From Flavobacteriales bacterium (GTDB taxonomy: Bacteria > Bacteroidota > Bacteroidia > Flavobacteriales_E > Vicingaceae): a DNA stretch of 64,000 nt. The DNA is taken from the NCBI GenBank assembly GCA_013359255.1, contig JABWCF010000008.1:62001-126000 (forward strand). The letters are read 5' to 3'. Under the pieces are notes generated by a model. It made no database searches. It was not told the DNA's origin and was given only the letters and a program-made list of their open reading frames with translations. Numbering within the stretch: position 1 is the first letter of the stretch; each line of letters starts with the position of its first letter. Positions 49,247 to 54,735 of the stretch are shown one piece after another. The position numbers and the translations under genes were made by a program.

Positions 49247-49353
49247 ACCCGTTGTGCATTTGGAAAAAAAAGTGTGTTCTCGATACTTTTTTTGCGAAAA
49301 AACTCGAACTGACACTTTTTTATTGAAAATTACACCTAAACGCACAAGGGGTT
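49247..49353. repeat. dispersed palindromic repeat, copy 1
   Basis: Terminal arms ACCCGTTGTGCATTT and AAACGCACAAGGGGTT are inverted copies. Inside, AGTGTGTTCTCGATA and CTCGAACTGACAC form a further imperfect inverted pair. The inner part matches copy 2 (about 54556-54650) in opposite orientation. It fills most of the gap between the UbiA-type and NhaD genes. The rest of that gap (49135-49246, 49354-49460) shows nothing recognisable. Confidence 0.75.
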
Positions 49354-49464
49354 ATAGTTTTATTTATTTAAAATCTTTCAAAGTATGTTGGTCTCTTATA
49401 AAAAACTGAGTGAAATATAGCAGAAGAATTAGGAGGTTACTTTATGCGGCCTATTCCATAGCCG

Positions 49465-52622: not shown

Positions 52623-52630
52623 CAAAGGTA
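52623..52630 (-). promoter_or_regulatory. -7 promoter element of murQ
   Basis: TACCTTTG on the minus strand, 4 nt before the murQ ATG; near-leaderless arrangement. Confidence 0.55.
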
Positions 52631-52745
52631 AGAAAGAACCCCATTTCGTTTTTTTATGATTTGTGTTTATAATGCTAAACATTTCTCTTGGAGGTTTAAA
52701 TTTAATTTTATAAATTAGCCTCATAAACTTTTAGAACCAAAAACC

Positions 52746-53275
52746 ATGGAAACAAAAAACTTAAAAAAGATGGCGTTCAGATGGTTGAATAGTCTATCTA
52801 TCTATCTATCTATCTATTAGTCTTACCCATTCGTTCTAATGGGCAAGTAAACGAGACCAATGTAGTAATGCTTGAACCGGCAAAATCACAGGGTTATTTA
52901 GTAATTAACTATCCGCAGTACGAAAATATGGCGAGATGGGAAATTGAAATTTATAAAAATACAGGAGTAGATACCCTTGATTACAAACTCGAAGAAACAA
53001 TTGTAAAACGGAATACTACATACCATCATTTTGACTCCACCTATTTTCTAGTTCCAGGTCAATACCAATATACCGTTAAATTATATGGCAACAACAACCA
53101 GTTGTTAGCTTTGCAGGGCAATACAAATATGTCATTTGATGACCCCTTAAAATGCGATGGCTGCGGTACTTTTAATAAACTATGTGTACACAAATGTGTG
53201 GGTTCAGATCATGCCTACGAATTGCAACGATGGTTTCACCCCAACAATGGCAGCCTGAGCCTGAGTTGCGAGTAA
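52746..53275 (+). CDS. putative phase-variable exported protein (frame interrupted at TCTA repeat, OFF state)
   Basis: ATG 52746 opens a frame (METKNLKKMAFRWLNS) that enters the TCTA tract and stops at TAG 52818-52820, right after it. In the next frame a coding region runs from the tract (LVLPIRSNGQVNETN) through MLEPAKSQGYLVINY to the stop at 53273-53275. Joining them needs one more TCTA unit or two fewer. This would give a signal peptide with an (LSIY)n core and a cut site near SNGQ. The mature protein (about 150 aa) is beta-rich with a Cys cluster CDGCGTFNKLCVHKC near the end. No family recognised. The alternative is a short protein from ATG 52868 with no signal. Confidence 0.65.
52793..52817 (+). 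repeat. (TCTA)6 tetranucleotide tract
   Basis: Six perfect TCTA units plus one T. The tract sits inside the would-be signal-peptide codons, where each unit changes the reading frame by one. This placement is typical of contingency loci switched by slipped-strand mispairing. Confidence 0.9.
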
Positions 53276-53363
53276 AAATAGAGCAATACAATTCCTTAAA
53301 AAAGAGGGTAAAAAATAAAATAGACGAACGATATTATTAATGTTTTTCTAAATACTTAAGCCA

Positions 53364-54008
53364 ATGCAGTACCGCCAAATCTACAATTTAAAAAGATTCA
53401 TAAAAGCAAGTACGATTATTCTGCCATGCTTCATTTTTTTGTTTGGCATTGCCCATGCACAAGAGCCCTTAAAAAAAGAAAGCAGAAAAAAAATAATTCA
53501 CCAAATAAAAAAAGAAAAGGAAGCATATTATAGCAATACTGTTTTTAACTGCTCCGTGCAGCAACTGAAAGAAGGCATACAAAAGTATTTTGAAAACAGA
53601 AAAGGATTTAGTTATAATTACGATACATATAACAGCGTTTGTTATACCACCTATTACACCCGCAGAGTTAGAGAGTATGTTGTTTGTGGTAATAATACAA
53701 ACCCTAACGAGCCGGCTTTATGCCTTTTAAGAGGAAGCGACAATCTTCGTTACTTTCTTTATATTGATATTGTTAAAGAGGGTGATTCCTTATTAAAAGT
53801 AGAAGTAGATGAGATGGGCGACCGAATGGAATTATATCGCAGTGGCACTACTATCAGCAACTTTAAATACTGGAATCTAATACATTTTTTAAATAGATAT
53901 ATTTATTCTAAATGGCAACCAGCACAAGAATTACAGACCAAAATAGACAGGTACAATGATAGTACATTGCGTACAAAAAGAAAAATAACAGAAGGAAAAG
54001 ACTATTGA
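53364..54008 (+). CDS. exported protein of unknown function
   Basis: Protein of 214 aa with a hydrophobic signal-like segment ([18 protein letters not shown], about 16-33). The mature part is charged ([20 protein letters not shown]) and then mixed alpha/beta with many Tyr. No recognised domain. It lies 88 nt after the repeat-interrupted gene on the same strand, so the two may be functionally related. Its end overlaps by 4 nt a long frame opening into ndk, but ndk itself starts about 100 nt later. Confidence 0.65.
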
Positions 54009-54550: not shown

Positions 54551-54735
54551 CGATAAACCCCTTGTGCATTTTAGAAGAATTTTTAATAAAAAAAGGTGTC
54601 AGTTCGAGTTTTTCTGAAAGAAAAATATCGAGAACACACTTTTTTTATTGAGAATTTGTATTCTCGATACATTCCGCAATGCTGTGGAACACTAGAATTG
54701 ACAAATTTTCTTTCAAATGCACAGCGGGTTTCGAT
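54551..54735. repeat. dispersed palindromic repeat, copy 2
   Basis: Outer arms CGATAAACCCCTTGTGCATTT-like (54551-54571) and an inverted partner near 54715-54735 (AAATGCACAGCGGGTTTCGA). Inside, GTGTCAGTTCGAG and ATCGAGAACACAC form an inverted pair, and GAGAATTTGTATTCTC gives a further hairpin. The left half matches copy 1 (49247-49353) in inverse orientation. It occupies most of the ndk to DUF5684 gap; the remaining 54736-54852 is AT-rich with no feature seen. Confidence 0.75.

Follow-up and report, generated by a model that had tools for sequence, protein, structure and literature searches.

A TCTA repeat in signal-peptide codons as the probable switch of a secreted-protein gene in Flavobacteriales, with a truncated copy in the analyzed genome

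Results

A TCTA tract between a start codon and the gene body

The window, by which we mean the whole stretch of 64,000 nucleotides that was analyzed, contains a perfect (TCTA)6.25 tract at positions 52793-52817 on the + strand, as detected with TRF. Dinucleotide shuffles of the window gave an expectation of 0 matches for tracts of at least four TCTA units. The 2.9-Mb genome to which the window belongs has no second TCTA tract of at least four units. In a tetranucleotide repeat census of an 847-kb sample, taken as stretches of this genome, the TCTA tract was the only repeat with at least four copies. The same gene is present in a sister species (genome G001, locus L009). In the list of features given here, OFF denotes an allele in which the start codon and the gene body are in different frames.

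52628..52745, + strand: upstream (promoter) region, conserved in the sister copy as well (blastn against L009 from 5886)
52746..52792, + strand: start codon and signal-peptide n-region (METKNLKKMAFRWLN) (translation; alignment with the sister)
52793..52817, + strand: (TCTA)6 tract, OFF at six units, whose codons give repeated LSIY in the core of the signal peptide (TRF, shuffles, frame table)
52818..52820, + strand: TAG that closes the frame of ATG 52746 right behind the tract (translation)
52820..53254, + strand: downstream frame with the end of the signal peptide (VLPIRSNGQ) and the first ~136 mature residues
53246..53254, + strand: deletion junction AATGGCAGC, a microhomology that is nearly exact in both parents of the join (alignment)
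53255..53340, + strand: 3' remnant of a second gene (frame WQPEPELRVKIEQYN...), resembling the tail of the gene at 53364-54008
53364..54008, + strand: gene for a 214-aa exported protein

The frame that starts at ATG 52746 reads METKNLKKMAFRWLNSLSIYLSIY and is closed by the TAG immediately 3' of the tract, and the downstream coding frame reads VLPIRSNGQVNETNVV..., also written VLPIRSNGQVNETNVVMLEPAKSQGYLVINYPQ.... The tract lies within signal-peptide codons, and its unit length of 4 is not a multiple of three. According to a frame table covering 1-10 units, the two frames are joined at n = 1, 4, 7 and 10, and apart at n = 2, 3, 5, 6, 8 and 9; the window allele, with six units, is OFF. Read from the codons of the + strand, TCTA repeats specify a Leu-Ser-Ile-Tyr cycle free of stops in all frames, because 4 and 3 have no common factor. 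An earlier sequence-only reading of this DNA had placed the tract in signal-peptide codons, had noted that the ATG 52746 frame stops right after it, and had predicted that the gain of one unit or the loss of two would join the frames. These three claims agree with the ordinary signal peptides that homologues have at that position, with the TAG at 52818-52820 and with the frame table, respectively.

Homologues place the tract in a signal peptide

When 395 genomes of the class were searched with a family profile, 12 gave matches. The full-length homologues have an N-terminal signal peptide, as judged by inspection, and the full-length members from other families begin with MKKIVLIAACLQLWCSLGKAQ, MKKIFVTGLLSLCGLMTFGQ, MKKIILITVLLTLILSNQLRAQ and similar sequences that contain no repeat. 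In the alignment, their invariant Gln at the cleavage site falls on the Gln of SNGQ in the window. Because these repeat-free, distant homologues all have ordinary signal peptides at this position, the tract sits inside a genuine signal peptide, the repeat is derived, and the start of the frame lies upstream of ATG 52868. The conserved signal peptide that the sequence-only reading had proposed to look for among homologues was found, and ATG 52868 was rejected as the true start on these grounds.

The products of the full-length relatives comprise ~490-545 residues and end in a domain of the YPxP...LYD...DGS kind, which resembles a type IX secretion (T9SS) sorting domain. A clear PF18962 domain is present in one more homologue (G249), and one of the six A2 members of the cargo family gave a weak match to a T9SS model; most members, including the sister protein, score below the curated sorting-domain models. 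The window's genome contains 116 matches to type A sorting domains. No family was found for the mature protein in Pfam, NCBIfam or PDB, nothing was found in Rfam, and neither the window ORF nor the sister protein matched an Opa or porin family in Pfam.

Related copies differ in unit number and bear traces of selection

In the sister species the tract occupies the same place with five units and the gene is OFF, its downstream frame being open for about 515 codons. In another genus of the same family (G007), a gene carries the tract in the same position, again with five units; this gene is OFF, and would be ON at 4 or 7 units (MKKLSIYLSTIGVNVLAQ...), and its protein is only about 27% identical. 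Unit numbers thus differ among related genomes (6 in the window, 5 in G001, 5 in G007). A contig search for further genomes with the sister protein returned the sister alone.

The window and the sister share 82% DNA identity over 52628-53254 (blastn; L009 from 5886), and the product of 52820..53254 is 81% identical to the sister protein. Over these 145 codons dN/dS is 0.18, and the differences at codon positions 1, 2 and 3 number 17, 14 and 45. Both values show that purifying selection maintained the downstream frame in the past, though the window and sister alleles are both OFF; they also uphold the view of the sequence-only reading that this frame is coding. In the sister, a longer A run (A8) upstream of the tract causes an extra frameshift with a stop before the tract, so the sister copy may be decaying or may need two changes.

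The window copy is cut short

Homology to the sister stops at 53254, where about 145 of the 515 codons remain; about 370 C-terminal codons, including those for the C-terminal T9SS-like domain, are missing. The bases 53255-53340 continue in another frame than that of the upstream gene and resemble the end of a 213/214-aa exported-protein gene. The gene at 53364-54008 and the third gene of the sister cassette (L009 8919-9560) share 94% identity at their 3' ends. A deletion has thus joined the window copy to the tail of another gene. Since the order in the sister is TCTA gene, T9SS type A gene and 213-aa gene, the window has lost most of the TCTA gene, all of the second gene and the start of the third. 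Owing to the deletion, the joined window product would have only 169-181 aa and no C-terminal domain (frame table), and its last six residues, LSLSCE, lie after 53254 and are foreign to the original gene. Being OFF and deleted in large part, the window copy is probably a non-functional relic today. An intact gene elsewhere in the window's genome was considered and rejected, as the lost 370 codons were not found there (only a weak 28% match at contig C21); no plasmid copies of the gene were found. The suggestion in the sequence-only reading that the window encodes an ON/OFF exported protein finds no support for this copy, from which the ~370 C-terminal codons beyond the junction at 53254 are gone, and its supposed C-terminal Cys cluster turns out to be an internal motif in the full-length relatives.

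The gene that follows the TCTA gene in the sister carries TIGR04183 (T9SS type A domain). This gene (L009 7658-8918) has a ten-G run and is read in frames of 226 aa and then 160 aa, with the T9SS domain in a separate frame.

The window and sister TCTA copies are not at matching positions. The ~4-kb cassette of the sister (L009 5620-9644) is absent from the window species' genome, G000, at L129 9113-9148, an empty site. Because contig C18 of G000 aligns with both sister flanks without the 4 kb, the gene set occupies a different position in each of the two species. No terminal repeats of the cassette were found. A dispersed intergenic repeat of ~200 bp occurs in the window (54556-54729 and 49287-49355) and at L009 5627-5832, L129 511-714 and L156 8753-8881; in the sister it adjoins the TCTA cassette, and in G000 a poly-C head copy (see below).

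TCTA tracts in other exported-protein genes of the class

The 395 genomes of the class yielded 15 TCTA tracts with a length of about five units or more. Five of them fall within the signal peptide of a long exported frame, namely in the three homologues and in two unrelated genes; the other 10 are outside such exported genes, and the class also has intergenic tracts of similar length. The two unrelated exported genes belong to other families of the class, and each has an LSIY-coding tract in its signal peptide: one, with a dockerin domain (G106), has 6 units and is OFF, to be ON at 4 or 7, and the other, with FG-GAP and UnbV_ASPIC domains (G173), has 9 units and is OFF, to be ON at 7 or 10. 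All five signal-peptide tracts are sense-oriented and require n = 1 mod 3 for ON (in the sister, with the A run set aside). As assembled, all five TCTA genes are OFF, an outcome with a chance of about 13% if one third of such genes were ON. The arrangement is rare: an ATGA shortly before four units was found in 1 of 395 genomes (phylum-wide sample).

Poly-C tracts in signal peptides of the window's genus

Several genes of the window's genus start with ATGAA(A/G)(C/T)A(C/T)TT(A) and continue with a run of 8 to 12 C, so that a poly-C tract lies in the n-region of the signal peptide (e.g. MKHLPPPIFGTLKTLVFAVFVNVTSMLHAQ). Some of these genes are ON and others OFF.

Poly-C (8-12) exported-protein genes in G000: C4:231003, C6:211, C18:200638
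Poly-C (8-12) exported-protein genes in G001: C28:58484, C31:71803, C45:102588, C65:34379, C72:3932

Tract lengths differ at matching positions, with C8 in G001 (contig C45) versus C9 in G000 (contig C18), and C11-12 in G001 (contig C72) versus C9 in G000 (contig C4). Two of the poly-C proteins carry PKD domains. In the C45/C18 pair, the head and the upstream region are common to both genes whereas the start of the mature part is different. A switchable head that is common to genes with different mature proteins suggests that poly-C heads and bodies may also be shuffled. In the first 560 bases of L129 (G000 contig C18) we observed a poly-C head copy with an interrupted tract (CCCCTCCC), which is probably no longer able to slip. 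Long G runs were also seen near the ends of G000 contigs (C3:96-110, C22:101-111, C24:107-120, C27:367-377, C34:489-499); these could be assembly-breaking repeats or a sequencing artefact.

Discussion

The present data are best accounted for by an opa-type contingency locus, in which a TCTA repeat in the signal peptide would switch a secreted-protein gene, the window copy being truncated and probably a relic. We regard this as likely, judging from the sequence comparisons. Slippage during DNA replication would change the number of TCTA units, and translation and Sec export would then switch as one, because the start codon would be in frame with the gene body only at 1, 4, 7, etc. units. Since LSIY is encoded in every frame without a stop, extra units would merely extend the hydrophobic core. 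That the switch is reversible and that the product is located at the surface is what we infer from this arrangement.

A different origin of the pattern would be a plain pseudogene, in which slippage has lengthened a neutral microsatellite of a dead or decaying gene and nothing is switched. The window copy is both truncated and OFF, the sister copy is OFF too with an additional frameshift, every TCTA gene found is OFF, and TCTA tracts of similar length lie between genes in the class, all of which this explanation would accommodate. It nevertheless seems unlikely to us, because a frame open over ~515 codons in the sister and a dN/dS of 0.18 are unexpected for a long-dead gene. It would also leave aside that a gene of another genus, at ~27% identity, has the tract in the same position, and that this arrangement recurs in unrelated exported genes.

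The OFF state of all five TCTA genes would, indirectly, also fit a rescue without any change in the DNA, in which the repeat causes either programmed ribosomal frameshifting or transcriptional slippage. However, the unit numbers of 6, 5, 5, 6 and 9 leave remainders mod 3 of 0, 2, 2, 0 and 0, where ON needs 1, and because these remainders differ, one fixed shift would not rescue all five genes; we therefore give such a rescue very little credence. Just as improbable is translation from ATG 52868 or another internal start, which would yield a protein with no signal peptide and leave the repeat untranslated. An in-frame ATG does exist at 52868, and the sister has one at the same place, but in several other families of the class the homologues carry a signal peptide and, after it, sequence that aligns upstream of this ATG, and the identity between window and sister runs on, in frame, upstream of it.

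Beyond the opa-type locus itself, one may tentatively ask whether this Flavobacteriales lineage keeps secreted-protein genes with slippage-prone signal peptides, switching probable type IX cargo at the export signal, with shuffling of poly-C heads and bodies as a suggested addition. This broader reading, which covers both TCTA in the core and poly-C in the n-region, we hold to be somewhat short of an even chance. It is characteristic of Neisseria and Helicobacter that signal-peptide repeats switch secreted proteins, and known switching in Bacteroidota proceeds mostly by DNA inversion. In the full-text open-licence literature, we found no report of signal-peptide repeat switching in Bacteroidota. 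If confirmed, the present observations would mean that environmental Bacteroidota apply the same trick to exported proteins, probably type IX cargo.

With respect to T9SS cargo (PF18962/TIGR04183), the family is alike in combining a signal peptide with a C-terminal domain that resembles such sorting domains, and differs in that most members fall below the curated models and the window copy is without this region. In Helicobacter pylori, slipped-strand mispairing at CT repeats in the signal peptide of oipA switches an outer-membrane protein (PMC10564699). The likeness to oipA lies in a repeat in signal-peptide codons that here would act as a frame switch, whereas the repeat, the protein and the phylum differ, and the product here is probable secreted cargo rather than a Hop-family outer-membrane protein. 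The opa genes of Neisseria have CTCTT repeats in the leader peptide (PMC3960869), also described as CTTCT tracts (PMC5953494). As in opa, a short signal-peptide repeat that encodes hydrophobic residues would switch the frame of an exported protein, the switching in our case being deduced from the sequence. Unlike in opa, the unit is TCTA, the protein family is unrelated, the lineage is one with type IX secretion, and the window copy is truncated. The TCTA unit resembles the opa repeat in the property of being stop-free and encoding hydrophobic residues whatever the frame, and would represent an independent solution with a similar property.
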